From: Lucinisca nassula
Lineage: Eukaryota > Mollusca > Bivalvia > Lucinida > Lucinidae
Direction of reading: 5' to 3'
Assembly (NCBI GenBank): GCA_963580285.1
Contig: OY757025.1
Coordinates: 118,051,900 to 118,115,899, forward strand
DNA length: 64,000 nucleotides
Part shown: piece by piece, positions 720 through 62,190 of the stretch
How the letters are laid out: each line of letters opens with the position of its first letter
How positions within the stretch are numbered: the stretch's first letter is position 1
The notes under the pieces: model-generated
Databases searched by the model: none
What the model was told of the DNA's origin: nothing
Seen by the model: only the letters and a program-made list of their open reading frames with translations
Made by a program: the position numbers and the translations under genes

Positions 720-798
720 TGTGACTCATAGCGAATAATTCCTAACTAGTTTCTGCCTAATAGTAGGCTTTCATCAGAGGATGTGTGCGCTTGTCACA
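720..798 (-). ncRNA. Type I hammerhead ribozyme, copy 1
   Basis: Read on the minus strand: stem I 5' pieces TGTGAC, AGCG, TCCT; core CTGATGA; stem II GCCTA/TAGGC with loop CTAT; GAAA; short stem III ACTAGT; cleavage-site base T; then AGGA, CGCT, GTCACA, which complement the three stem I pieces in order. Conserved core positions are present (CUGAUGA, GAA, A15.1-U16.1, H17=U). Weak points are an A-A mismatch where 10.1-11.1 is normally G-C, a GUU rather than GUC triplet, and a self-complementary stem III with no loop, which would favour a dimeric fold. Sixteen identical copies occur at 720-798 plus n x 1808 (n = 0 to 15). Predicted cleavage here is between 744 and 743. Confidence 0.82.
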
Positions 799-827
799 GA
801 TTTGTGACGAGCTGTGCGATTTTCGCT

Positions 828-836
828 CTTTATATA
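828..836 (-). promoter_or_regulatory. TATA box before the hammerhead
   Basis: CTTTATATA on the plus strand, TATATAAAG on the sense strand, repeated every 1808 bp; the plus-strand copy is at 29765-29773. A TATA box places pol II initiation about 30 bp downstream, which would fall at the 5' edge of the ribozyme. Each unit could therefore carry its own promoter. This is a sequence-match call only. Confidence 0.5.
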
Positions 837-878
837 CCCTCTGGGTCACCCATGGTTACCCATCATTATGTATGTAGA

Positions 879-1077
879 CCGGCCCTTTTGGGGGCTGGTG
901 GGCAATTTTTGCCTTTGTGAAGACTGTCACCGGCCCTTTGGGGGCCGGTTGACGTTATTTCCATTTCGTTGTTATGGAGAGAACGTCGTCACCGGCCCCT
1001 GGGGGCCGGTGACGTCATAATCCATTGTTATTAATGGGCACAAGACGTTCACCGGCCCCTATGGGGCCGGGCGACGT
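879..1077. repeat. Four consecutive GC-rich hairpins in the unit's non-coding region
   Basis: Four inverted repeats built on CCGGCCC...GGGCCGG, with centres about 50-60 nt apart: 879-898, 929-949, 988-1013 (the longest, nearly perfect, GTCACC...GGTGAC) and 1045-1077. Loops are only 2-5 nt. Several are bordered by ACGT/ACGTC. They would fold in RNA of either polarity and as DNA cruciforms. They recur unchanged every 1808 bp and, inverted, at 29524-29722. They sit between the zinc-finger ORF and the TATA box/ribozyme. Confidence 0.85.
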
Positions 1078-1373
1078 TTTCCTTTACTATTTTGGTTAGG
1101 ATTGTGGCATTAGTTGGTCCGTTTGGGGCCGCTTTGTATTATCGGTAGCCTAAATACATGTATTTATATGTATCGTATGTATTTTATTGTCGGCACCGGT
1201 ACCGATTTTTGGACAGTCTTTGAAAGGGAATACATTTTCGCTGTTTATTCACAGGCTTTGTGGGGTTACTGAAGTGAGGCGCATTTGCAATTTATTGTTA
1301 ATTTATGTTAATTGACGGGTGGGATGGGGGAGAGAATGTTAGTATAACATGTATAAGATGATTGTTTACATGC

Positions 1374-1440
1374 AAAGGTATGAAATTGTTTATAATAAAC
1401 GGTCAAAATGAAACTTATTTGTTTTCATTTACATACCTTT
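1374..1440. other. Three-way-junction-like fold overlapping the end of the zinc-finger ORF
   Basis: A closing 9-bp stem pairs AAAGGTATG (1374-1382) with CATACCTTT (1432-1440). It encloses two hairpins, GTTTAT/ATAAAC (1388-1400) and AATGAAA/TTTCATT (1407-1429). It recurs every 1808 bp and, inverted, at 29161-29227. The stop codon of the zinc-finger ORF lies within it. Function unknown; possibilities include a cis signal for RNA stability or template selection. Confidence 0.55.
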
Positions 1441-1745
1441 ATTTCGAAGTTGGCCATTGTGAATAAATCATCACTTAAGGAGAGTTCTGTATTGAATTTC
1501 TCTTCTAGGAAAGGTCCTAGAATTCTATCTAATTTTTCTATTGTGAAGTCCCGTGTGTTCGGGTCCTTGGCACTTCGACTTTCCCCTGTAATTCCTTCGT
1601 GTTTGTTACGAATATGCTCACACATAGAATCTTTTCTAGTGAATAATAGCCCACAATGCTGGCATAAGATACGGAGTTCTTTGTGTGCCGTTTCCAGGTG
1701 TCTCCGCAGGCTTTTTAGGTGTTTGTATGTCTTGTTACATTCCAA
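1425..1745 (-). CDS. C2H2 double zinc-finger protein ORF of the 1808-bp unit (copy 1)
   Basis: About 106 residues, with the frame open upstream to 1769. The leading Cys pair C-L-E-C begins at 1748, just upstream of the listed start, giving finger 1 as C-x2-C-x12-H-x4-H and finger 2 as C-x2-C-x12-H-x4-H, each with the usual aromatic and Leu core residues. The C-terminal half is acidic/amphipathic with no domain I recognise. No ATG precedes the first Cys pair in this frame: two stops (TAA TAG) lie just upstream, so translation would need a non-AUG start or splicing. The reading frame ends within AAG/GTATGT, a strong 5' splice-site match, so this could be an internal exon. Identical copies lie every 1808 bp; the one at 6849 has a damaged finger. 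A nucleic-acid-binding role is inferred from the fingers only. Confidence 0.6.
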   Translation of the reverse strand: MECNKTYKHLKSLRRHLETAHKELRILCQHCGLLFTRKDSMCEHIRNKHEGITGESRSAKDPNTRDFTIEKLDRILGPFLEEKFNTELSLSDDLFTMANFEIKVCK

Positions 1746-1762
1746 ACATGGATGTATTTCCG

Positions 1763-1865
1763 TAGTTAGCTATTAGTGCGACAGTTGTGCGACGTTATGA
1801 CGTCCTCTTTATGCCAGTTTTGGGGCGTCTTTGCCCCGTAATTGCAAACGTATTTGAGCTAACTA
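1763..1865. other. Multi-branched fold between the 66-aa ORF and the zinc-finger ORF
   Basis: TAGTTAGCT (1763-1771) complements AGCTAACTA (1857-1865), closing a 103-nt domain. Inside are GGGGC/GCCCC (1822-1837) and GACGT/ACGTC (1791-1804). The domain fills the gap between two ORFs, contains in-frame stops, and is conserved in all copies (inverted copy 28736-28838). It could be a structured linker, an internal initiation element or a second catalytic motif; I do not recognise a known class. Confidence 0.5.
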
Positions 1866-2063
1866 ATAGGTTGCGTGTTCGGGATAGAGAGAGGAGTAAG
1901 GGGACATAAATGTGAAAGGTGCATGGCTGAAATTTCCTGTCTCTATCCCTGAACATAAGTCCCGACCGGTCGGAGAGTGTGTAGCTGATAGATCCAGTAC
2001 AATTCCTTGATTATTCGGGGTTTGTACTCCTATGGTCATCAGGGTCTGATGGTAAGATTTCAA
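1863..2063 (-). CDS. 66-aa ORF of the unit, unknown function
   Basis: Same frame as the Arg/Lys-rich ORF upstream (separated by TGA) and the zinc-finger ORF downstream (separated by TAG and further stops). Composition is protein-like (many Thr, Ser, Pro; few charged residues), with no motif I recognise and no ATG at the 5' end. Copies lie every 1808 bp; 25367-25567 carries one Pro-to-Thr change (25477). In the inverted block the full copy is 28538-28738, and a second copy is cut off at 30498 by the array end. It may be part of a spliced or recoded longer protein, or non-coding. Confidence 0.3.
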   Translation of the reverse strand: MKSYHQTLMTIGVQTPNNQGIVLDLSATHSPTGRDLCSGIETGNFSHAPFTFMSPYSSLYPEHATY

Positions 2064-2075
2064 TAATTTGAAATA

Positions 2076-2321
2076 TCATTTGTTCGAGGGCATGGTCAAG
2101 GAGGTTGAAATGGTTTGCCACCGGCGTATCCCGTTTTTTCGGGTGTCGCGCTGGTGTTCCGTCATTCGAACCTTCTTGATAAGCCTCGATAGGATTCTTG
2201 TGGCTTCTTTATAGGCCGGTTGGATCTGTGCCGGTAACTTTAGCGTCTTCCTTATTAGACGGCTCCTCTTCCGAAGTGTTCTCCCTGGTCCTCTTCTTGG
2301 AACTCTTCTCTTTGGGAACAA
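2076..2321 (-). CDS. Arg/Lys-rich 81-aa ORF of the unit, unknown function
   Basis: Very basic N-terminal half (clusters such as P-K-R-R-V-P-R-R), then a helical-looking Arg/Leu stretch. It overlaps the Ser/Lys-rich ORF in another frame for about 115 nt and starts only with a non-AUG codon. Its stop (TGA) is followed in frame by the 66-aa ORF. Basic composition may simply reflect the overlapping frame. Inverted copy 30088-30333. Confidence 0.25.
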   Translation of the reverse strand: MFPKRRVPRRGPGRTLRKRSRLIRKTLKLPAQIQPAYKEATRILSRLIKKVRMTEHQRDTRKNGIRRWQTISTSLTMPSNK

Positions 2322-2391
2322 CCGTAATTCGCGACGAACTGGCTGACGCAGACGTCAGGGTCAGATTGCTCAGGCTTGAGCTAACTGACAT
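2209..2391 (-). CDS. Ser-rich, Lys/Glu-rich 60-aa ORF with ATG start
   Basis: ATG-initiated. Residues 1-22 are Ser/Thr/Leu-rich; a run of Lys/Arg follows (K-E-K-S-S-K-K-R-T-R, nuclear-localisation-like), then an acidic patch (S-E-E-E-P). The frame is open about 26 codons further upstream. After its TAA stop (2206-2208 region of the unit) the same frame stays open for another 65 codons. That downstream stretch also looks protein-like, with a hydrophobic L-L-D-H-A-L-E-Q-M helix. Every copy has the TAA, so it was in the founding molecule. Plus-strand copy 30018-30200. Confidence 0.4.
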   Translation of the reverse strand: MSVSSSLSNLTLTSASASSSRITVVPKEKSSKKRTRENTSEEEPSNKEDAKVTGTDPTGL

Positions 2392-2537
2392 GTCGCTGTT
2401 GGTCTGTGTTGGACTTCTCCCATGGAACGCTGACCCGGCGCATCCGTCTCCGAGCGAAGAAGGGGTGCATTAAAGCTGGAGGTGTGTGGCTGACGACTCA
2501 GATTGGTCGCGCCATGGTCTTGCTCATTGTGACTCAT
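2370..2537 (-). CDS. 55-aa ORF starting 14 nt after the ribozyme cut
   Basis: First ATG after the predicted cleavage site (ATGAGTCACAATGAGC). The start codon lies inside the ribozyme fold, two nucleotides from the outer stem I strand. It is polar, with no motif I recognise. It ends with TGA 20 nt past the ATG of the Ser/Lys-rich ORF in a different frame, a start-stop overlap. Plus-strand copy 29872-30039. It is shorter than 60 codons and could be non-coding. Confidence 0.3.
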   Translation of the reverse strand: MSHNEQDHGATNLSRQPHTSSFNAPLLRSETDAPGQRSMGEVQHRPTATCQLAQA

Positions 2538-2606
2538 AGCGAATAATTCCTAACTAGTTTCTGCCTAATAGTAGGCTTTCATCAGAGGATGTGTGCGCTT
2601 GTCACA
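2528..2606 (-). ncRNA. Type I hammerhead ribozyme, copy 2
   Basis: Same fold and sequence as at 720-798; with that copy it bounds the first complete 1808-nt RNA unit. None of the eight array substitutions I found falls inside any ribozyme copy. Confidence 0.8.
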
Positions 2607-28293: not shown

Positions 28294-28320
28294 CATCCTC
28301 TGATGAAAGCCTACTATTAG
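28294..28320 (+). pseudogene. Truncated hammerhead fragment at the inversion junction
   Basis: CATCCTCTGATGA plus half of stem II (to TATTAG), then an abrupt join to sequence that normally lies 284 bp further along. It keeps the CUGAUGA core but lacks GAAA and the cleavage site, so it cannot be a ribozyme. It forms the 26-27 bp filler between the two array blocks. Confidence 0.8.
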
Positions 28321-28855
28321 AACACTTCGGAAGAGGAGCCGTCTAATAAGGAAGACGCTAAAGTTACCGGCACAGATCCAACCGGCCTATAAAGAAGCCA
28401 CAAGAATCCTATCGAGGCTTATCAAGAAGGTTCGAATGACGGAACACCAGCGCGACACCCGAAAAAACGGGATACGCCGGTGGCAAACCATTTCAACCTC
28501 CTTGACCATGCCCTCGAACAAATGATATTTCAAATTATTGAAATCTTACCATCAGACCCTGATGACCATAGGAGTACAAACCCCGAATAATCAAGGAATT
28601 GTACTGGATCTATCAGCTACACACTCTCCGACCGGTCGGGACTTATGTTCAGGGATAGAGACAGGAAATTTCAGCCATGCACCTTTCACATTTATGTCCC
28701 CTTACTCCTCTCTCTATCCCGAACACGCAACCTATTAGTTAGCTCAAATACGTTTGCAATTACGGGGCAAAGACGCCCCAAAACTGGCATAAAGAGGACG
28801 TCATAACGTCGCACAACTGTCGCACTAATAGCTAACTACGGAAATACATCCATGT

Positions 28856-29176
28856 TTGGAATGTAACAAGACATACAAACACCTAAAAAGCCTGCGGAGA
28901 CACCTGGAAACGGCACACAAAGAACTCCGTATCTTATGCCAGCATTGTGGGCTATTATTCACTAGAAAAGATTCTATGTGTGAGCATATTCGTAACAAAC
29001 ACGAAGGAATTACAGGGGAAAGTCGAAGTGCCAAGGACCCGAACACACGGGACTTCACAATAGAAAAATTAGATAGAATTCTAGGACCTTTCCTAGAAGA
29101 GAAATTCAATACAGAACTCTCCTTAAGTGATGATTTATTCACAATGGCCAACTTCGAAATAAAGGTATGTAAATGA
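28856..29176 (+). CDS. C2H2 double zinc-finger ORF in the inverted block
   Basis: Plus-strand copy, identical in translation to the majority sequence. The C-L-E-C pair starts at 28853, and the frame is open from 28832 after TAA TAG. The 62-122 residue antisense frames over this region are shadows. It lies downstream of the 66-aa ORF at 28538-28738 in the same frame, separated by the multi-branched fold and stop codons. Confidence 0.55.
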   Translation: MECNKTYKHLKSLRRHLETAHKELRILCQHCGLLFTRKDSMCEHIRNKHEGITGESRSAKDPNTRDFTIEKLDRILGPFLEEKFNTELSLSDDLFTMANFEIKVCK

Positions 29177-29802
29177 AAACAAATAAGTTTCATTTTGACC
29201 GTTTATTATAAACAATTTCATACCTTTGCATGTAAACAATCATCTTATACATGTTATACTAACATTCTCTCCCCCATCCCACCCGTCAATTAACATAAAT
29301 TAACAATAAATTGCAAATGCGCCTCACTTCAGTAACCCCACAAAGCCTGTGAATAAACAGCGAAAATGTATTCCCTTTCAAAGACTGTCCAAAAATCGGT
29401 ACCGGTGCCGACAATAAAATACATACGATACATATAAATACATGTATTTAGGCTACCGATAATACAAAGCGGCCCCAAACGGACCAACTAATGCCACAAT
29501 CCTAACCAAAATAGTAAAGGAAAACGTCGCCCGGCCCCATAGGGGCCGGTGAACGTCTTGTGCCCATTAATAACAATGGATTATGACGTCACCGGCCCCC
29601 AGGGGCCGGTGACGACGTTCTCTCCATAACAACGAAATGGAAATAACGTCAACCGGCCCCCAAAGGGCCGGTGACAGTCTTCACAAAGGCAAAAATTGCC
29701 CACCAGCCCCCAAAAGGGCCGGTCTACATACATAATGATGGGTAACCATGGGTGACCCAGAGGGTATATAAAGAGCGAAAATCGCACAGCTCGTCACAAA
29801 TC

Positions 29803-29881
29803 TGTGACAAGCGCACACATCCTCTGATGAAAGCCTACTATTAGGCAGAAACTAGTTAGGAATTATTCGCTATGAGTCACA
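29803..29881 (+). ncRNA. Type I hammerhead ribozyme in the inverted block
   Basis: Plus-strand copy that shows the fold most directly. Stem I: 29803-29808 with 29876-29881, 29810-29813 with 29868-29871, 29820-29823 with 29858-29861. Core CTGATGA is at 29824-29830. Stem II pairs 29833-29837 with 29842-29846. GAAA is at 29848-29851. The palindromic stem III is 29851-29856. The predicted cut is after T29857. Internal loops in stem I (CACACA opposite ATTATT) are where natural hammerheads make loop-loop contacts. Confidence 0.82.
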
Positions 29882-30498
29882 ATGAGCAAGACCATGGCGC
29901 GACCAATCTGAGTCGTCAGCCACACACCTCCAGCTTTAATGCACCCCTTCTTCGCTCGGAGACGGATGCGCCGGGTCAGCGTTCCATGGGAGAAGTCCAA
30001 CACAGACCAACAGCGACATGTCAGTTAGCTCAAGCCTGAGCAATCTGACCCTGACGTCTGCGTCAGCCAGTTCGTCGCGAATTACGGTTGTTCCCAAAGA
30101 GAAGAGTTCCAAGAAGAGGACCAGGGAGAACACTTCGGAAGAGGAGCCGTCTAATAAGGAAGACGCTAAAGTTACCGGCACAGATCCAACCGGCCTATAA
30201 AGAAGCCACAAGAATCCTATCGAGGCTTATCAAGAAGGTTCGAATGACGGAACACCAGCGCGACACCCGAAAAAACGGGATACGCCGGTGGCAAACCATT
30301 TCAACCTCCTTGACCATGCCCTCGAACAAATGATATTTCAAATTATTGAAATCTTACCATCAGACCCTGATGACCATAGGAGTACAAACCCCGAATAATC
30401 AAGGAATTGTACTGGATCTATCAGCTACACACTCTCCGACCGGTCGGGACTTATGTTCAGGGATAGAGACAGGAAATTTCAGCCATGCACCTTTCACA

Positions 30499-30513
30499 TA
30501 TATTTCATTCTTA
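30499..30513 (+). repeat. Right 15-bp target site duplication of the 29.8-kb insertion
   Basis: TATATTTCATTCTTA, identical to 652-666, directly after the last array base. The unit itself continues TTTATGTCC at this point, so only one T is ambiguous. Confidence 0.85.
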
Positions 30514-31500: not shown

Positions 31501-31713
31501 TTAACCCTTATCTTGCTGAATATTCATTTAAGCCACACCCATTTCTGTCTATCAACCAATCAAATTACTTGATGTAATTTATTCCTACAAAGCCATAAAC
31601 TTAATGTCAAACAGTGTAGATCTTGATCAGACGGCTTCTTCAGAAGCCATCTGATCTGGATCTGCACTGTTTCCAAAGATAGGGGTTGTCGTGAACAGCA
31701 AGATAAGAGTTAA
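31501..31713 (+). mobile_element. Palindromic MITE M1, complete copy
   Basis: TTAACCCTTATCTTGCTG at one end and CAGCAAGATAAGAGTTAA at the other, 213 bp, with TTAA at both ends and a central palindrome. A good reference copy for the family. Confidence 0.8.
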
Positions 31714-37204: not shown

Positions 37205-38230
37205 ACAAAAACAAAGGCTATAATTTGTACAATCTTGGCAAAGGTCCACTAGATGAAGCTACACACCAAATATCAAAGACCTGGGCCTTGCGGTTTCAGA
37301 GAAGAAGATTTTTATAAAGATATTCCCTACATAAGCCTATGCACCAGGGCTATATAAGTCTATGTAAAACCAAAGGGCCCCGGGGTGGGGTTCATTTGTG
37401 GCCCCAGGGCTATAATTTGAACAATCTTGGTAGAGGTCTACTAGATGAAGCTCCATACCAAATATCAAAGACCTGGGCCTTGCAGTTTCAGAGAAGAAGA
37501 TTTTTTAAAAATTTCCCTTTATAAGTCTATGTAAAACCAAAGGGTCTCTAAGCAACGACGTTTTTGGCCCCAGGGCTATAATTTGAACAATCTTGGTAGA
37601 GATCCACTAGATGACGCTTCATACCAAATATCAAAGACCTGGGCCTTCTGGTTTCAGACGAGAAGATTTTCAAAGGTTTTCCCTATAAAAGCCTATATAA
37701 AACCAGTGGGACCTGGTGCGGGGGGCATTTTTTGGCCCCAGGGCTATAATTTGAACAATCTTGGTAGCGGTCCACTTGACGAAGCTAGTTACCAAATATC
37801 AAAGACATGGGCCTTCTGGTTAAAGACAAGAAGATTTTTAAAGGTTTTCCAAATATAAGCCTATGTAAAACCAGTGGGCCCCGGGGCGGGGCCGGTTTTG
37901 GGCCCAGGACTATAATTTGAACAATCTTGGTAGAGGTCCACTAGATGAAGCTTCATACCAAATATCAAAGAGCTGGGCCTTCTGGTTTCAGACAAGAAGA
38001 ATTTTAAAGGTTTTCCCTATATAAGCCTACGTAAAACCAGTGGGCCCCGGGGCGGGGCTGTTTTTGGCACCAGGGCTATAATCTGAACAATCTTGGTAGC
38101 AGTCCACTAGATGAAGCTACATACCAAATATCAAAGACCTGGGCCTTCTGGTTTCAGACAAGAAGATTTTTAAAGGTTTTCCCAATATAAGCCTATGTAA
38201 AACCAGTGGGCCCCGCGTTTTTTGCCCCAG
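37205..38230 (+). repeat. Tandem array, about 168-bp period, six copies
   Basis: The landmark CTATAATTTGAACAATCTTG recurs at about 37410, 37578, 37744, 37911 and 38083. Copies differ by scattered substitutions and small indels. Confidence 0.85.
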
Positions 38231-38234
38231 GGCT

Positions 38235-39560
38235 ATTAACCCATCCACTGGTTAAGCAGAAGAAGCTCTGGTGGCCATTTTGTTCACCCAAGCTGAACAG
38301 TATGAGCAATTTTGGTAGAGGGACACCAAACGAACATTCCTGTGAAATAATTTCAAAATCCATCCACTGGTTAAGGAGAAGAAATGGTTTAAAGGTTTTT
38401 CTATTTTTAGCTCTGGTGGCCATTTTGTTCACCCGATCAGAACGGTACAAGCAATTTTGGTAGAGATTCACCAAAGGAACATTCCTGTGAAATAATTTCA
38501 AAATCCATCCACTGGTTAAGGAGAAGAAGTTGTTTAAAGGTTTTTTCTATTTTTAGCTCTGGCGGCCATTTTGTTCGGCCGAGCGTAACGGTTTGAGCAA
38601 TTTTGGTAGAGGGTCACGCAAGGAACATTCCAGAGAAATAATTTCAAAATCCATCCACTGGCTAAGGAGACGAAAACGTTTAAAGGTTTTTCTTTTTTTA
38701 GCTCTGGCGGCCATTTTGTTCACCCGAGCAGAACAGTTTGAGCAATTTTGGTAGAGGGTCACCCAAGGAACATTCCAGTGAAATAATTTCAAAATCCATC
38801 CACTGGTTAAGGAGAATAAGTCCTTTAAAGGTTTTTCTATTTTTAGCTCTGGCGGCTATTTTGTTCACCCGGGCGGAACGGTTTGAGCAATTTTAGTAGA
38901 GGGGCACCAAAGGAACATTCCTGTAAAATAATTTCAAAATCCATCCACTGGTTAAGGAGAAGAAGTCTTTTAAAGGTTTTTCTATTTTTAGCTCCGGCGG
39001 CCATTTTGTTCATCCGAGCGGAACGGTTTGAGCAATTTTTGTAGAAGGTCATCCAAGGAACATTCCTGTGGAATAATTTCAAAATCCATCCACTGGTTCA
39101 GCAGGAGAAGTCGTTTAAAGGTTTTTCTATTTTTAGCTCTGGCGGCCATCTTGTTCACCTGAGCAGAACGGTTTGAGCAATTTTGGTAGAGGGTCACCCA
39201 AGGAACATTCCTGTGCAATAATTTCAAAATCCATCCACTGGTTTAGGAGAAGAAGTCCTTTAAAGGTTTTCCTATTTTTAGCTCTGGCGGCCATTTTGTT
39301 CACCCGAGCAGAACGGTTTGAGCAATTTTGGTAGAAGGTCATCCAAGGAACATTCCTGTAAAATAATTTCAAAATCCATCCGCTGGTTAAGCAGGAGAAG
39401 TCGTTTAAAGGTTTTTCTATTTTTAGCTCTGGCGGCCATCTTGTTCACCCGAGCGGAACAGTTTGAGCAATTTTGGTAGAGGATCACCCAAGGAGCATTC
39501 CTGTGAAATTAGATCAAAATCTGTCCAGCAGTTTTGGAGAAGAAGTTGTTTAAAGCAAAA
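38235..39560 (+). repeat. Tandem array, 145-bp period, about nine copies
   Basis: Landmark GCTCTGGCGGCCATTTTGTT followed by AGCAATTTTGGTAGAGGGTC, repeated at 145-bp steps. The long antisense frames that overlap are out of phase with each other (145 is not a multiple of 3), so they are not a repeated protein domain. Confidence 0.88.
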
Positions 39561-40760: not shown

Positions 40761-40799
40761 GTCCCCGGGCATGGTCATTTTTTATTCAAAGTTGCTCAC

Positions 40800-43640
40800 A
40801 GTTCAAGATTTTTGCTTGTGTGGGAAGCCCTTGACACAAGAAACTTACATGTCAAATATGAAAGCTCTATCTTAAACGGTTCAAAAGTTATGAACAATAA
40901 TATTTTTTTTTCTTTAAAGTAGGTCAAGGTCACAGGTTAAAAAATTTCATGAATGTAAAGCTCTTGTCACAAGGAACCTACATGCCAAATATTAAGGCTC
41001 TATCTTAAACGGTTCAAAAGTTATGAACAATTTTATTTTTTCTTTTAAGTAGGTCAAAGGTCAAGGTCATGGTCCAAACATTTTGCATGAATTAAAAGCT
41101 CTAAACACAGGGAACCTACATGCCAAATATGAAAGCTCTATCCCAAACGGTTCGAAAGTTATGACAAAAAATGTTTATTTTCTTAAGCAGGTCAAGGTCA
41201 CAGGTCAAACTTTTTGCATGACTGTAAAGTGTCTGTCACAACGAACCTACATGCTAAATATGAAGGCTGTATCTCAAACGGTTCAAAAGTTATGAGCAAT
41301 GTTAACTTTTTCTTTTATGTAGGTCAAAGGTCAAGGTCACAGGTAAAAATTTTTGTGTGAATGTAAAGCTCTTGTCACAAGGAACCTACATGCAAAATAT
41401 GAAGGCTCTATCTCAAACCGTTCAAAAGTTATGACCAAAATGGTATTTTTTATTTCAAGTAGGTCAAAGGTCAAGGTCACAGGTCAAAATTCTTTGCATG
41501 AATGCAAAGCTTTTGTCACAAGGAACATACATGCTAAATATGAAGGATGTATCTCAAATGGTTCAAAAGTTATGACCAATGTTAACTTTTTCTTTTATGT
41601 AGGTCAAAGGTCAAGGTCACAGGTCAAAATTTTTTGTGTGAATGTAAAGCTCTTGTCACAAGGAACCTACATGCAAAATATGAAGGCTCTATCTCAAACC
41701 GTCCAAAAGTTATGACCAAAATGTTATTTTTTGATTTTAAGTAGGTCAAAGGTCAAGGTCACAGGTCAAATTTTTTTGCATGAATGTAAAGCTTTTGTCA
41801 CAAGGAACATACATGCTAAATATGAAGGCTGTATCTCAAGTGGTTCAAAAGTTATGACCAATGTTATTTTTTTATTTTAAGTAGGTCAAAGGTCAAGGTC
41901 AAGGTCACAGGTCATTTTTTTTGCATGAGTGTAAAGCTTTTGTCACAAGGAACATACATGCTAAATATGAAGGCTGTATCTCAAAAGGTTCAAAAGTTAT
42001 GACCAATGTTATTTTTTCTTTTAAGTAGGTCAAAGGTCAAGGTCACGGGTCAAATTTTTTTGCATGAATGTGAAGGTCTTGTCACTAAGAACCTACATGC
42101 AAAATATGAAGGCTGTATCTCAAACCGTTCAAAAGTTATGACCAAAATGTTATTTTTTGATTTTAAGTAGGTCAAAGGTCAAGGTCACAGGTTAAAAAAA
42201 TTCATGAATGTAAAGCTCTTGTCACAAGGAACCTACATGCCAAATATTAAGGCTCTATCTTAAACAGTTCAAAAGTTATGAACAATTTTATTTTTTCTTT
42301 TAAGTAGGTCAAAGGTCAAGGTCATGGTCCAAACATTTTGCATGAATGAAAAGCTCTAATCACAGGGAACCTACATGCCAAATATGAAAGCTCTATCCCA
42401 AACGGTTCGAAAGTTATGACAAAAAATGTTTATTTTTTTAAGCAGGTCAAGGTCACAGGTCAAAATTTTTGCATGACTGTAAAGTGTCTGTCACAACGAA
42501 CCTATATGCTAAATATGAAGGCTGTATCTCAAACGGTTCAAAAGTTATGAGCAATGTTAACTTTTTCTTTTATGTAGGTCAAAGGTCAAGGTCACAGGTA
42601 AAAATTTTTGTGTGAATGTAAAGCTCTTGTCACAAGGAACCTACATGCAAAATATGAAGGCTCTATCTCAAACCGTTCAAAAGTTATGACCAAAATGGTA
42701 CTTTTTATTTCAAGTAGGTCAAAGGTCAAGGTCACAGGTCAAAATTCTTTGCATGAATGCAAAGCTTTTGTCACAAGGAACATACATGCTAAATATGAAG
42801 GATGTATCTCAAATGGTTCAAAAGTTATGACCAATGTTAACTTTTTCTTTTATGTAGGTCAAAGGTCAAGGTCACAGGTCAACATTTTTTGTGTGAATGT
42901 AAAGCTCTTGTCACAAGGAACCTACATGCAAAATATGAAGGCTCTATCTCAAACCGTCCAAAAGTTATGACCAAAATGTTATTTTTTTATTTTAAGTAGG
43001 TCAAAGGTCAAGGTCACAGGTCATTTTTTTTTGCATGAGTGTAAAGCTTTTGTCACAAGGAACATACATGCTAAATATGAAGGCTGTATCTCAAAAGGTT
43101 CAAAAGTTATGACCAATGTTATTTTTTCTTTTAAGTAGGTCAAAGGTCAAGGTCACGGGTCAAATTTTTTTGCATGAATGTGAAGGTCTTGTCACTAAGA
43201 ACCTACATGCAAAATATGAAGGCTGTATCTCAAACCGTTCAAAAGTTATGACCAAAATGTTATTTTTTGATTTTAAGTAGGTCAAAGGTCAAGGTCACAG
43301 GTCAAATTTTTTTGCATGAATGTAAAGCTTTTGTCACAAGGAACATACATGCTAAATATGAAGGCTGTATCTCAAGTGGTTCAAAAGTTATGACCAATGT
43401 TATTTTTTTCTTTTAAGTAGGTCAAAGGTCAAGGTCACAGGTCAATTTTTTTTGCATGAATGTGAAGGTTTGTCACAAGGAACCTTCAGGCCAAATATGA
43501 AAGCTCTATCTCAAACGGTTCAAAAGTTATGGCCAACGTTAAAGTTGTCCACGTACAAACCAACAAACCTACAAACCAACAAACAGACAGGGCAAAAACA
43601 ATATGTCCCCGCTATCGCTACCGGGGACATAAAAAGAAAA
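40800..43640 (+). mobile_element. Pearl-like element with a 139-bp tandem core
   Basis: About 19 copies of a unit built on GTCAAGGTCACAGGTCAAA, GTAAAGCTCTTGTCACAAGG, AACCTACATGC and GGTTCAAAAGTTATGA. It ends in an ACAAACC/ACAGAC-rich stretch and the hairpin TGTCCCCG...CGGGGACA followed by TAAAAA. The overall plan matches the elements at 37060-39645 and 60655-62190. The two 120-aa frames (41353, 42608) are repeat sequence. Confidence 0.6.
40920..43430 (+). repeat. Higher-order duplication of 1255 bp within the tandem core
   Basis: Unit variants recur in the same order 1255 bp apart: the variant with TTAAAAAATTTCATGAATG near 40938 and near 42193, and the accidental frames at 41353 and 42608. 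This equals about nine 139-bp units, so the block was duplicated together. Confidence 0.75.
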
Positions 43641-50904: not shown

Positions 50905-52070
50905 TGTGTAGACACTGATGAGATGGCTTGTTAGGAGCTAATTTTTGGCAACTTGTGTAGACACTGATGAGCATTACGATAACACGCCCGTGCATCATAA
51001 TGCATTTTTTACGTCTCTAAGACGGTCAATTTTCTGATGGAAATTTGTGATAGTATTCTTATTTATACTCAAAACATAGATTGTGGGTGCTCGTTAGACC
51101 CGCCTCATTGAGGCGGTTCTAACGAGTACCCACAACCTAAGTCAATGAGCAGAAATAAGGAAAATCATGTATACCCCCTAAACCCCAGTTTTCTATACAT
51201 AAAGTGGGGTGTAAGGGGGTGTTCATTTCACGGACTTGTAAGCGTGATGGATGGCTTATAATGAGCAAAGTTTTTGGCAAATGGTGTAGACACTGATGAG
51301 ATGGCTTGAAATGAGCTAAGTTTTGGGCAAATGGTGTAGACACTGATGAGATGGCTTATAATGAGCTAAGTTTTTGGCAAATGGTGTAGACATTGATGAG
51401 ATGGCTTATAATGAGCTAAGTTTTTGGCAAATGGTGTAGACACTGATGAGATGGCTTATAATGAGCTAAGTTTTTGGCAACTTGTGTAGACACTGATGAG
51501 ATGGCTTATAATGAGCTAAGTTTTTGGCAAATGGTGTAGACATTGATGAGATGGCTTATAATGAGCTAAGTTTTTGGCAAATGGTGTAGACACTGATGAG
51601 ATGGCTTATAATGAGCTAAGTTTTTGGCAAATGGTGTAGACACTGATGAGATGGCTTATAATGAGCTAAGTTTTTGGCAAATGGTGTAGACACTGATGAG
51701 ATGGCTTATAATGAGTTAAGTTTTTGGCAAATGGTGAAGACACTGATGAGATGGCTTATAATGAGCTAAGTTTTTGGCAAATGGTGTAGACACTGATGAG
51801 ATGGCTTATAATGAGCTAAGTTTTTGGCAAATGGTGTAGACACTGATGAGATGGCTTATAATGAGCTAAGTTTTTGGCAAATGGTGTAGACACTGATGAG
51901 ATGGCTTATAATGAGCTAAGTTTTTGGCAAATGGTGTAGACACTGATGAGATGGCTTATAATGAGCTAAGTTTTTGGCAAATGGTGTAGACACTGATGAG
52001 ATGGCTTATAATGAGCTAAGTTTTTGGCAAATGGTGTAGACACTGATGAGATGGCTTATAATGAGCTGCC
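50905..52070 (+). repeat. 50-bp satellite array, interrupted by an M2 MITE
   Basis: Unit ATGAGCTAAGTTTTTGGCAA / ATGGTGTAGACACTGATGAG / ATGGCTTATA repeats about 16 times from 51252 to 52068, nearly identical. Diverged copies at 50905-50971 lie on the other side of the MITE insertion. Variants (ACATTGATGAG, CAACTTGTGTAG) recur, suggesting block duplications. Confidence 0.92.
50972..51249. mobile_element. Palindrome-centred MITE (M2), copy 2, inside the 50-bp array
   Basis: CATTACGATAACACGCC start and CTTGTAAGCGTGATG end (imperfect inverted ends), central palindrome TCGTTAGACCCGCCTCA ... TGAGGCGGTTCTAACGA. The 50-bp unit is broken at GATGAG / ATGGCTTATA, marking the insertion point. Same family as 34926-35205. 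Confidence 0.7.
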
Positions 52071-53184: not shown

Positions 53185-53619
53185 TCAGAAGAAGGTTACC
53201 TGTAAAACCTGGGCTGGGCTCATGGGCTGGGCTTGGGCTCGAATTTTTGGGCTCGAATGAAAATGGGTTTAACTCAGGACATAGGTGAAACAGGGTCAGT
53301 TTTTGACCTTTCAACTTTGTTTGTTGTCTGGTTGTAGGAACTGTTAAAGAGAATTGCTCCCATGGGCCCCTGTCAAGATTATAATTACCGAGTTTGTTTT
53401 CCTGTGCTTGATTTGTGTTGCAACCAGCAAAATCTGGATTTCGACATCGAAAAAGACAGGATTCATTACTTTTAATTGAGCCAGAAGATGCCTAAGCTCC
53501 AAAAAGACCTAGGTGATCAGCAAAAACTCGGAACAGACTGTGCAGATGTGCAGGCTGAACCGAGCCTTTAGTGGTGGGGCAGGGGTCAGTGCAGGTTTAC
53601 TTTACTTTCAGAGTAAGAT

Positions 53620-55560
53620 ACTGACAAACAGTGAAAACACAGATCAGAGTCAACATGTCAAGGGTTCAAAAGTGGGATACTGGAAACAGTGAAGATCCAG
53701 ATCAGACGCAAAATATCCAGGGTTTTAAAATGGGATCATGACAAACAGTGGAGAACCTGATCAGAGGCCACATGTCTTTGGTTCCAAAATGGGATCATGC
53801 CAAACAGTAAGATCCAGATCAGAGGCCACGTGTCTAGGGTTCGGAATGCTGACAAAGACGACCCAGATCAGAGGTCATATGTCTAGGATCCAATATTGGA
53901 TTCTGACAAACAGTGAATACCCAGATCTGAGGCCACGTGTTTTGGGTTCCAAAATGATATACTAACAAACAGGGAAGACCTAGATCAGAGGCCACCTGTC
54001 TTGCTTTCCAAAATGGGATGCTGACATACAAAGATGACCCAGATCAGAGGCCATATGTCTAGGGTTCCAAAATGGGATTCTGACAATCAGTGAGGACCCA
54101 GGTCAGGGGTCATGTGTCTATGGCTCCAAAATAGGATACTAACAAGCAGTGAAGACCCATATTAGAGGCCACATGTCTAGGATTCAAAAATGGGATTCTG
54201 ACAATCAGTGAAGACCCAGATCAGAGGCCAGGTGTCTAAGGCTCCAAAATGAGATACTGACAATCAGTGAAGACCCAGATCAGAGGCCATGTGTCTAGGG
54301 CTCCAAAATGAGATACTGACAATCAGTGAAGACCCAGATCAGAGGCCATGTGTCTAGGGCTCGAAAATAGGATGCTGACAATCAGTGAAGACCCAGATCA
54401 GAGGCCACATGTCTAGGGCTCGAAAACAGGATACTGACAATCAGTGAAGACCCAGATCAGAGGCCACATGTCTAGGGCTTGACAATCAGTGAAGACCCAG
54501 ATCAGAGGCCACGAGTCTAGGGCTCGAAAATAGGTTACTGACAATCAGTGAAGACCCAGATCAGAGGCCATGTGTCTAGGGCTCGAAAATAGAATACTGA
54601 CAATCAGTGAAGACCCAGATCAGAGGCCACATGTCTAGGGCTCGAAAATAGGACACTGACAATCAGTGAAGACCTAGATCAGAGGCCACATGTCTAGGGC
54701 TCGAAAATAGGACACTGACAATCAGTGAAGACCCAGATCAGAGACTACGTGTCTAGGGCTCGAAAATAGGACACTGACAATCAGTGATGACCCTGATCAG
54801 AGGCCACGATTCTAGGGCTCGAAAATAGGACACTGACAATCAGTGAAGACCCAGATCAGAGACTACGTGTCTCGGGTTCCAAAATGGGATACTGACAAAC
54901 AAAAACAACCCAGATCAGAGGTCATAGGTTTCATAATTGAATACTGACAAACAGTGAAGACCCGGATCAGAAGCCACATGTCTAGGATTTTGAAATGGGA
55001 CACTGACAAACAGTTCAGACCCAAATCAAAGGCCACATGAGGTTCAAAAATGGGATACTGACAAACACTTTGGACCCATATCAGAGGCCACATGTCTATG
55101 GTTCTAAAATGGGATACTTACAAACAGTTAAGACCCAGTTCAGAGGCCACGTGTCTATGGTTCCAAAAGGGGGTACTGACAAACAGTTAAGACCCAGATC
55201 AGAGGCCACGTCTAGAGTTCCAAAATGGGATACTAACAGTGACGACTCATATCAGAGACAATATGTCTAGGGTTCCAAAATGGGATACTGACAGTGTAGA
55301 CACAGATCAGAGGCCACGTGTCTAGGGTTCAAAAATGGGATACTAACAAACAGTAACGACCTAGATCAAACGCAACATGTCTGAGGTTCCAAAATGGAGT
55401 ACTGACAGTGTATACCATGGCTAGGGTTCCAGAATGGGATACTGACAAACAGTGTAGACCCAGATCAGAGGCGACGTAAACAGTGTAGACCCAGATCAGA
55501 AGCCGCATGTGTAGGATTCCAAAATCGAACATTTACAAACAGTGAAGATCCAGATCAGGT
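53620..55560 (+). repeat. About 60-bp tandem array inside the 4.4-kb element
   Basis: Unit ACTGACAATCAGTGAAGACC / CAGATCAGAGGCCACATGTC / TAGGGCTCGAAAATAGGAT, about 30 copies. The central copies (54200-54860) are the most uniform; outer copies carry AAACAGTG and TTCCAAAATGGG variants. The core ACAGTGAAGACCCAGATCAG is also the arm of the H1 hairpins. Short frames on both strands are repeat-derived. Confidence 0.88.
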
Positions 55561-60654: not shown

Positions 60655-62190
60655 GTTTTTGGGGGCCGGTGCCCTTTAAACTAAAGTCAAGGTCATCAAA
60701 ACGTAGTCAAATCTGTGGTCAATTTCAATGATATTATCACATTTCATTGGACGACAGGGCTTGAGATGTCATTTCATCTCAATGTCGGGTAAAAGTCCCA
60801 CAAAATTGGAAGCAACATCTCCAAAATGACCTTTACAGTATTGACAGGGACGTTAAACCTCAAATCAAACAAACAAACATTTCATTGATGTGTTCATGAG
60901 ATTGGGTGCAGACAAGCCATCTTTGGCCCAAAATTGACAGTTTTTGGGGCCTGTGCCCTTGAAAAAAAGGTCAAGGTCACCAAAACCTAAATGCTGTTTT
61001 CCCCCATCCTAGTGATGAAACCATGCAAGTTTGGTCAGAATCAATCGTTAGGTGCAGGAGATATAGTGCTTCAAGCAGACTACCTGATAGAAATGGCTAT
61101 GTTCAATGTTCAAGGGGCGATAACTCAAAAAGTAAGAAAATCAGAGTTATGGTTCATATGTTCTGCAAGTCGTTTCATTCTGCTCTACATATCTGTGAAG
61201 TTTCATGGAAATATCACAAACGTCATCTAAGTTATGGAGCAGACACGAAGCTATGACAGAAATAGCTACACTCCATGTTCAAAGGGCAACAACTCCAAAA
61301 GTAGGAAAATCAGAGTTACAGTTCATATGTTCTGCATGTCATCTCATAATGCTCTACATACCTGTGAAGTTTCATAAATCTCAAATGATATCAGAGTTAT
61401 GGAGCGGACACAAAACTGATAGCAGCAGCTATATTCAAAGTTGAAAGGGCATTAACTCCAGAAGTAGGACAATCAGAGTTACAGTTCATATGTTCTGCAT
61501 GTTATCTCATGATGCTCTACATATCTATGAAGCTTCATGGAAATATCTCAAATAGTATCAAAATTATGGAGCAGACACAAAACTATGACCGAAATGGCTA
61601 TGTTCAATGTTAAAAGGGCAATAACTCCAAAAGTAGGAAAATCAGAGTTATGGTTCATATGTTCTGCACGTCGTCTCATAATGTTTTACATGTCTGTGAA
61701 GTTTCATGAAAATATCTCAAATGGTATCAGTTATGGAGCAGATACGAAACAGATAGCAGCAGCTATATTCAAAGTTCAAAGGGCAAATACTCCAAACGTA
61801 GGAGGACCTGAGTTATGTTTCATATGTTCTGCAAGCGTCTCATGGTGTTCTACATATCTGTAAGGTTTCATGGAAATATCTCTAACTGTATCGAAGTTAT
61901 GAAGCGGACAAGAAATTATGACAGAAATGGCTATGTTCAGTGTTCAAAGGGCAACAACTCCAAAAGTGGGAAAATCAGAGTTATGGTTCATATGTTCTGC
62001 ATGTCGTCTGATAGTGCTCTGCATATCTGTGAAGTTTCATGAAAATATCTCAAATGGTATCAGAGTTATGGAGCGGACACATAACTATGAGGCACTGATG
62101 GACGGATGTATGGACTGACGGACACTCAAAACTTCGGAGGGTATAACATAATACACCGCCATTTTTTTAATGGCGGGGCATAAAAAGTAA
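60655..62190 (+). mobile_element. Pearl-like element with about 168-bp tandem core
   Basis: The head GGGGGCCGGTGCCCTTTAAA is split by a SINE. From about 61020 to 62090 there are about six diverged units with ATATGTTCTGCATGTCGTCT, CATATCTGTGAAGTTTCATG and AAAGGGCAATAACTCCAAAA. It ends with GACGGACACTC, GGGTATAACATAATACACCG and the hairpin CCGCCATT/AATGGCGG followed by CATAAAAAG. The 66-108 aa frames here are repeat sequence. Confidence 0.6.
60750..60876 (+). mobile_element. SINE-A, 5'-truncated, with target duplication
   Basis: Begins at GACGACAGGGCTTGAGATG inside the SINE and ends with the AAATCAAACAAACAA tail. ACATTTCATTG flanks it on both sides (60739-60749 and 60877-60887), an 11-bp target duplication showing that truncation happened during insertion. 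Confidence 0.8.

Follow-up and report, generated by a model that had tools for sequence, protein, structure and literature searches.

A 64,000-nt stretch of the genome of the lucinid bivalve Lucinisca nassula (contig OY757025.1, positions 118,051,900 to 118,115,899; hereafter the window) contains a long tandem array of an 1808-bp unit, which raises the question of what kind of element this is and how the array arose. An earlier note, made from the sequence of the window alone, had proposed a coding retrozyme, i.e., a self-cleaving RNA unit with a C2H2 zinc-finger open reading frame (ORF), forming a new class between retrozymes, Penelope-like elements (PLEs) and viroid-like RNAs. Our analysis indicates that the unit belongs to a known class, the PLEs, of which it is an unusual and informative variant. 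Very probably it is a non-autonomous, internally deleted PLE, inserted head-to-head from two fixed sites (A and B, below) by the reverse transcriptase-endonuclease (RT-EN) of a helper element.

Structure of the block and its Penelope-like relatives

The tandem repetition of the 1808-nt unit described in the earlier note is real: 15 full copies can be counted from position 744, and the other 14 differ from the first by 0–2 bases each. These copies form part of a single block at 666–30499, in which about 16 unit copies (15.28 antisense and 1.21 sense) make up an insert of ~30 kb. The orientation of the block switches at 28294–28320, a switch that had been missed. Because a perfect 15-nt direct repeat lies on both flanks, the block looks like one insertion, which had likewise gone unnoticed. 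Its parts are as follows, with unit positions given in the sense of the element.

652 to 666: left copy of the target-site duplication (TSD), 15 nt, TATATTTCATTCTTA
666 to 28294, minus strand (element sense): tandem arm of 15.28 units, outer end at unit sense 214
744 to 2551, minus strand: the 1808-bp unit as first delimited
28294 to 28320, plus strand: filler of 27 nt, equal to unit sense 97–123, at the head-to-head junction
28319 to 30499, plus strand: sense arm (1.21 units) that begins at sense 406, passes round the unit and reaches sense 778, where site B forms the outer end
30499 to 30513: right copy of the TSD, 15 nt, a perfect repeat of TATATTTCATTCTTA

Relatives of the unit were sought in the 2.93-Gb host genome. 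A tblastn search with the zinc-finger ORF gave at least 150 matches, which included further arrays of the window unit and divergent families at ~64–71% and ~38–47% identity. L058, a member of the latter family with a period of 2274 bp, carries a zinc-finger frame of 169 aa, an ORF that begins with MSHNEQ, and a GIY-YIG domain scoring 26.0 bits against a cut-off of 22.6. Searching with this domain returned at least 150 matches, and at least four open frames above 1000 aa. One of these relatives (L063) has a 1070-aa ORF with RVT_1 (E 2.2e-12) and a C-terminal GIY-YIG domain (E 4.7e-05), both above the Pfam cut-offs, and a hammerhead motif directly upstream of the ORF; a PDB search with the same ORF gave four weak matches, three of which were reverse transcriptases (RTs). 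In another (L062), two RT-EN frames (1039 and 803 aa) lie head-to-head, and the zinc-finger ORF follows downstream. Judged by their predicted proteins, both are autonomous PLEs, having the single ORF with RT and GIY-YIG that is absent from the window unit. The layout of the autonomous copies runs from a pseudo-long terminal repeat (pLTR; GC palindromes, TATA box) through a minimal hammerhead and the ORF (N-terminal region, RT, GIY-YIG endonuclease) to the C2H2 double-finger ORF and the next pLTR.

When the 1070-aa ORF was compared with the window family by tblastn, it matched over about aa 1–122 and 994–1070, in shifting frames (the lowest-identity N-terminal alignment extends to aa 138), and no RT match was found on the window unit. 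In one locus (L020), the N- and C-terminal pieces abut at 122/994. With both ends of the ORF matched and no RT, the window unit is therefore an internally deleted, non-autonomous PLE; ~870 codons are gone, which encoded the RT and the beginning of the endonuclease domain. The DNA of the unit is 81–89% identical to that of L062 and L059 over stretches of 217–1278 nt. The family retains the pLTR, the hammerhead motif, both insertion termini and the zinc-finger ORF. Its homology on both sides of the deletion, pLTR, head-to-head arms with a TSD, terminus near the ORF start and minimal hammerhead motif in the region of the pLTR and ORF start are the features of a non-autonomous PLE. In the first unit of the window these parts are placed as follows.

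828 to 836, minus strand: TATA box TATATAAAG, sense 44–52
941 to 1070: GC-rich palindromes CCGGCCCC, ~60 bp apart, in the pLTR (promoter) region
1425 to 1769, minus strand: C2H2 double-finger ORF, 114 aa stop to stop
1946 to 2174, minus strand: frameshifted remnant of the endonuclease C-terminus, matching aa 994–1070 of the autonomous ORF
2176 to 2537, minus strand: frameshifted remnant of the RT-EN polyprotein N-terminus, starting MSHNEQ and matching ~aa 1–122

Given this origin, the unit is not a new class of retrozyme, and the PLE reading supersedes that of the earlier note. Its position as a deleted conventional PLE comes close to an outcome that the note had itself named as contradicting its proposal, namely that related sequences reveal a fragment of a larger conventional element. 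The RT partner with the same hammerhead motif that the note had postulated in trans appears likely, since autonomous PLEs are predicted in the same genome. The template may have been circular or linear. Readings of the unit as a DNA transposon, as a virus or as mobilized by long interspersed nuclear elements (LINEs) were dropped once the PLE relatives had been found.

Insertion ends and two putative start sites

The unit family has many recent insertions, and their ends record the process of insertion. We mapped 17 loci, i.e., the window and all 16 other loci in a listing of 19 scored out of 398 candidates. A TSD of 12–17 nt was present in 12 of the 17 (window, L010, L011, L012, C404, C1, L020, L021, L022, L024, L025 and L026). 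In L011 and L024, repeat and element overlap by some bases; in L012, repeat and arm are separated by four additional bases; and the right TSD copy of L026 begins 20 nt past the BLAST border. Every identified outer end lies at unit sense ~214 or ~778, with the sense-3' end outward. Where two ends could be identified, one at 214 was paired with one at 778 in 10 of 10 loci (window, L011, L012, C404, C1, L020, L021, L024, L025 and L026; the 214 end of L012 is 5 nt short, and the 778 arm of L026 is a short stretch judged by eye). Only the 214 end was identified in five loci (L010, L017, L022, L023 and L027) and only the 778 end in two (L009 and L016). The inner junctions are mostly scattered along the unit. 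The two recurrent ends point to the following sites, which are 564 nt apart in the window derivative.

2474 to 2492, minus strand: putative initiation site A, CAGCCACACACCTCCAGCT, sense 196–214, ending 64 nt (21–22 codons) into the ORF
1910 to 1929, minus strand: putative initiation site B, CAGCCATGCACCTTTCACAT, sense 759–778, right after the endonuclease remnant

The autonomous copies L062 and L063 end at the equivalent of site B, directly after the endonuclease. The family combines many-unit arms with two internal sites that are fixed and that apparently each serve one DNA strand.

The structure, the homology, the fixed outer ends and the TSDs are observed directly; the mechanism that we infer draws on these insertions and on what has been published about PLE biochemistry. 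The RT-EN of an autonomous PLE would bind sense RNA that has a single unit sequence and is either circular or multimeric, and would cut both DNA strands ~15 bp apart. Of the two DNA ends, one would prime on the RNA at sense 214 (site A), the other at sense 778 (site B). Both cDNAs would then run up the RNA, at times for several rounds, and meet 5' to 5', so that the product would be a head-to-head block with a duplication of ~12–17 nt on its flanks and, in the window, arms of 15.28 and 1.21 units. In the available excerpts of PMC11167929, the protein of the Poseidon PLE of Anolis is described as cutting and extending both strands at AT-rich DNA, and as starting internally in an AC-rich stem-loop, at two adjacent sites that lie 111–118 nt into the ORF. 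To the eye, the TSDs of the window family likewise look AT-rich. For the Penelope elements of Adineta, the accessible part of PMC3846280 describes head-to-head pLTRs with TSDs of 8–10 bp and a tail that extends into the ORF for ~22 codons. The match between the window insertions and these systems appears close, not exact.

Several observations weigh against this mechanism. In five of the 17 loci, no TSD reaches 12 nt (8 nt in L027; none found in L009, L016, L017 and L023), and the further arrays found by the zinc-finger search lie outside the mapped loci, apart from part of C13. The start sites described for Anolis are adjacent, whereas A and B are far apart and B lies outside the ORF start; the Anolis start is in a stem-loop, whereas no stable one is predicted at A or B, which fold no better than shuffled sequences (z -0.72 and +1.61). 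The sequence similarity between A and B is weak and is equaled by 44 of 1,000 shuffles. The TSDs, at 12–17 nt, are longer than those described for Adineta.

The ends also bear on other possible sources of the block, namely the integration of a small circular DNA virus, or a DNA transposon or foldback element bounded by terminal inverted repeats. The outer ends do resemble short inverted repeats (TCAGCCAYRCACCT), and they are paired. However, the one-ended loci L010 and L022 are TSD-flanked with other 5' ends (at 589 and 531), whereas foldback and inverted-repeat elements need both ends and a transposase; every identified end is sense-3' outward, the relatives encode RT-EN, and a scan of the six frames of the unit recovered no transposase or replication protein. 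We regard such an origin as highly improbable.

At L024 (C5:23475300-23480100), three inner junctions lie at sense 73, 73 and 74, ~30 nt downstream of the TATA box. This suggests that they mark RNA 5' ends at the promoter start, with a template jump there.

The C1 insertion includes a LINE (L018:2527 to L019:1512; C1:142323026-142331912) within ~20 bases of its head-to-head junction. The LINE has open frames of 682 and 1291 aa, the second with endonuclease, RT and RNase H (Pfam), and of the 40 copies listed for each of its ends, the majority begin at L018:2545 or terminate at L019:1512. A 15-nt TSD encloses the composite of PLE derivative and LINE. Either a template jump, which was our first reading, or a nested insertion with a short TSD is possible; the latter, later event is considered because a short CAGCT is common to both borders.

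Hammerhead motif, possible RNA templates and zinc-finger frame

Between the TATA box and the ATG of every unit lies a minimal type I hammerhead motif on the minus strand, the placement of which in the first unit is as follows.

740 to 781, minus strand: hammerhead motif; stem I 778–781 with 740–743, core 749–777, predicted cut between 744 and 743 (unit sense 136/137)

The motif reads UCCU-CUGAUGA-AA-GCCUA-CUAU-UAGGC-A-GAAA-CUAGUU|AGGA, with stem I UCCU/AGGA, core CUGAUGA, stem II GCCUA/UAGGC, GAAA, the self-complementary ACUAGU and H17=U. All 17 window copies compared are identical at the motif, and its core and stem II are unchanged in 37 of the 39 listed non-window copies (16 loci). An equally good motif is expected by chance ~8e-5 times per unit, counting both strands (7e-4 and 1.7e-3 under looser definitions), as estimated from 4.0 billion simulated bases with matching dinucleotide composition. 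The core with the window-type stem II occurs 181 times in the genome, window copies included, and 0 times when the pattern is read backwards; with a free stem II and a GUC triplet there are 92 occurrences versus 0. The latter fall mainly into two stem II states (GCCTA/TAGGC and TCCAA/TTGGA), with variable loops and, in a few copies, a broken pair. Divergent relatives have the motif at the same place as the window unit. Among four distinct aligned sequences, 36 of 36 cells are paired and two of nine pairs are changed on both sides; 14 of 500 shuffle controls reach the same percentage paired, changed cells and covariation score, but as many changed pairs are seen in 344 of the 500. The rows are few, and the two compensatory changes in stem II between families may represent a single event.

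Hence, the statement of the earlier note that each unit carries a hammerhead holds for a conserved minus-strand motif, whose ribozyme activity is only predicted. Rfam did not report a hammerhead for the unit at the gathering score or at E up to 10, nor for a relative at E up to 10. Stem II has at its base an unpaired A.A plus an extra A, and stem III is self-complementary without a loop, so that it cannot form inside a single molecule. Minimal PLE hammerheads without helix III, acting as dimers, are described in the accessible part of PMC7761336, and amphibian retrozymes are reported to require dimers likewise (PMC7229834, in part).

Variants private to a locus bear on the RNA that was copied. 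Counted with gaps per base, those found in all copies of a locus outnumber those found in some copies at C404 (23 and 5), L016 (10 and 5) and L010 (9 and 6). The corresponding numbers are 7 and 28 at C5, 3 and 12 at L012, 2 and 12 at L024, 2 and 11 at L025, 1 and 9 at L021, 5 and 7 at C1, 1 and 3 at L020, 0 and 5 at L009, 1 and 1 at L027, and 1 and 62 at L011. Every window copy has variants at sense 434, 904 and 1438 that are lacking at the other mapped loci, except that one of three L016 copies has the 1438 variant. At least at some loci, these patterns fit the repeated copying of one monomer sequence, either as a circle or as a homogeneous multimer.

A circular RNA template is possible. Within the PLE framework, the coding retrozyme would take the form of hammerhead-cut 1808-nt monomers that are ligated, the circle then being copied by a PLE RT. 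The conservation of the motif outside the window and the two compensatory pair changes speak for this, as do the locus-private variants shared by copies at C404, L016 and L010 (in C404 and L016 across both arms), and a circle with one A and one B would account for the invariable pairing of A with B. However, none of the arm ends read at the mapped loci coincides with the predicted cut, and the L024 junctions at sense 73–74 correspond to uncleaved RNA. In the portion of PMC11167929 available, hammerhead cleavage is described as dispensable for the Anolis PLE, the hammerhead cleaves only with the protein present, and the dominant substrate in vitro is unprocessed RNA. Moreover, private variants found in some copies equal or exceed those found in all at ten loci, and a homogeneous source array would yield homogeneous units just as well. 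We consider this route unlikely.

Linear multi-unit transcripts of arrays, for which the ribozyme motif is not needed, are a reasonably probable template. This is the model proposed in PMC11167929 (available excerpts); other multi-unit arrays are present (C13, C17 and C4), and the hammerhead region is copied intact within arms. Nonetheless, the long window arm would demand a near-homogeneous RNA of 27.6 kb, and the sister array in C13 has copy-specific differences and short deletions. This array (L064; C13:82418800-82425800) encodes the window zinc-finger protein and is probably older than the window array because of these differences and deletions.

Two observations are in line with the enlargement of a small PLE insertion by unequal crossing-over after its arrival: a variant at offset 394 is common to the non-adjacent window copies indexed 9 and 11, and a C-to-A change at sense 187 is found in two adjacent C13 units. 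Multi-unit arms recur, however, at several independent TSD-flanked loci, and we judge later enlargement to be rather improbable.

The zinc-finger ORF is the sole supported frame among those scanned in the unit. The double finger noted previously is borne out by Pfam (zf-C2H2, E 7.2e-07) and by a protein, P0001, that is 75% identical to the window ORF and was the single match in a large protein search; P0001 is 82–90% identical to its eight best copies in the host genome, all of the L062-type family. By length, the longest ORFs of the unit are within the range of chance, given that 285 of 1,000 shuffled units reach 125 aa. Two other frames, which are PLE remnants or lie beside them, gave no match in protein searches. 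No relative was confirmed among viral contigs (one pattern match, unconfirmed) or prokaryote genomes (28 pattern matches, none confirmed). A reading of the unit as a spliced gene (GTATGT ... TACTAAC) was dropped as unsupported.

In the window family, the zinc-finger ORF is open, whereas the RT-EN pieces are frameshifted; several other copies have it with a stop or truncated. By sequence comparison, the ORF appears conserved across PLE families, and the ratios of nonsynonymous to synonymous substitution rates (0.14 against L062, 0.13 against L059 and 0.19 against L058, where synonymous divergence is near saturation) are consistent with purifying selection across them. Recent constraint in the derivative is not evident because zinc-finger variants common to at least three loci are split 2, 6 and 6 over codon positions 1, 2 and 3 (n = 14). 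The family reveals PLEs in which a C2H2 ORF is conserved downstream, and also a deletion derivative in which this ORF is retained. An earlier publication of such an ORF in PLEs is possible; "Penelope-like" and "C2H2" co-occur in the parts of the literature available to us.

Conceivably, the derivative behaves as a coding circular-RNA parasite. The hammerhead, perhaps assisted by protein, would yield 1.8-kb circles, a helper RT-EN would start from the two cut DNA ends at two fixed sites of one circle and copy up to 15 rounds, and the retained zinc-finger protein would bind the GC palindromes of the pLTR and control or promote the cycle. That ribozyme circles, two-site copying and zinc-finger control all hold together seems doubtful.

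Other repeats were noted in the window and in one array. Several unrelated satellite arrays lie at window positions 37350–39555, 40796–43542, 51245–52067, 53617–55407 and 61085–62090; they have periods of ~166, 145, 140, 50, 59 and 169 bp and total ~8.5 kb. Near-palindromes of ~69 bp, resembling miniature inverted-repeat transposable elements (AACAGTGTAGATCC...GGATCTACACTGTT), occur at 31606–31674 and in 11 more places through the window. Within the PLE-derivative array of C404, an 8.7-kb stretch with inverted-repeat ends GGGAAGGTATAATTTGAGGAC... (C404:26017-34759; L013-L014) is probably a nested element, and parts of it match window satellites at ~37.1–39.7 kb.

Comparison with known systems

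Deltavirus-like circular RNAs (~1500–1700 nt; PMC7936874, accessible part) are similar to the window unit in size and in having a hammerhead motif. Unlike them, the unit is a genomic insertion with PLE termini, shows no delta antigen in six frames and has no evident rod. Its circular fold is more stable than that of 40 shuffles (z -7.9 in sense and -11.4 in antisense), with a paired fraction close to the shuffle mean (56% versus 52% in sense, 66% versus 65% in antisense); the extra predicted stability may be due to the GC palindromes.

Metazoan non-LTR retrozymes are RNAs of ~170–400 nt, for which the available portion of PMC7229834 describes no ORF and proposes PLEs as helpers. The window unit shares with them the tandem repetition with a type I hammerhead motif, the non-autonomous nature and the TSDs. 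It differs in its length of 1808 nt, in its conserved zinc-finger ORF and in being a PLE deletion product, and it is accordingly not the small, non-coding repeat by which retrozymes are recognized.

The closest resemblance is to the Penelope/Poseidon PLEs, with which the family shares tandem units or pLTRs, an internal start near the ORF start, and relatives that have RT and a C-terminal GIY-YIG. As described in part for Anolis Poseidon, there is a minimal hammerhead near the ORF start and apparent two-strand internal initiation, and, as in the excerpts on Adineta Penelope, there are head-to-head arms with a TSD. Unlike these PLEs, the window unit is without an RT or an intact ORF of that kind, carries a downstream C2H2 ORF and has formed an arm of 15.28 units.

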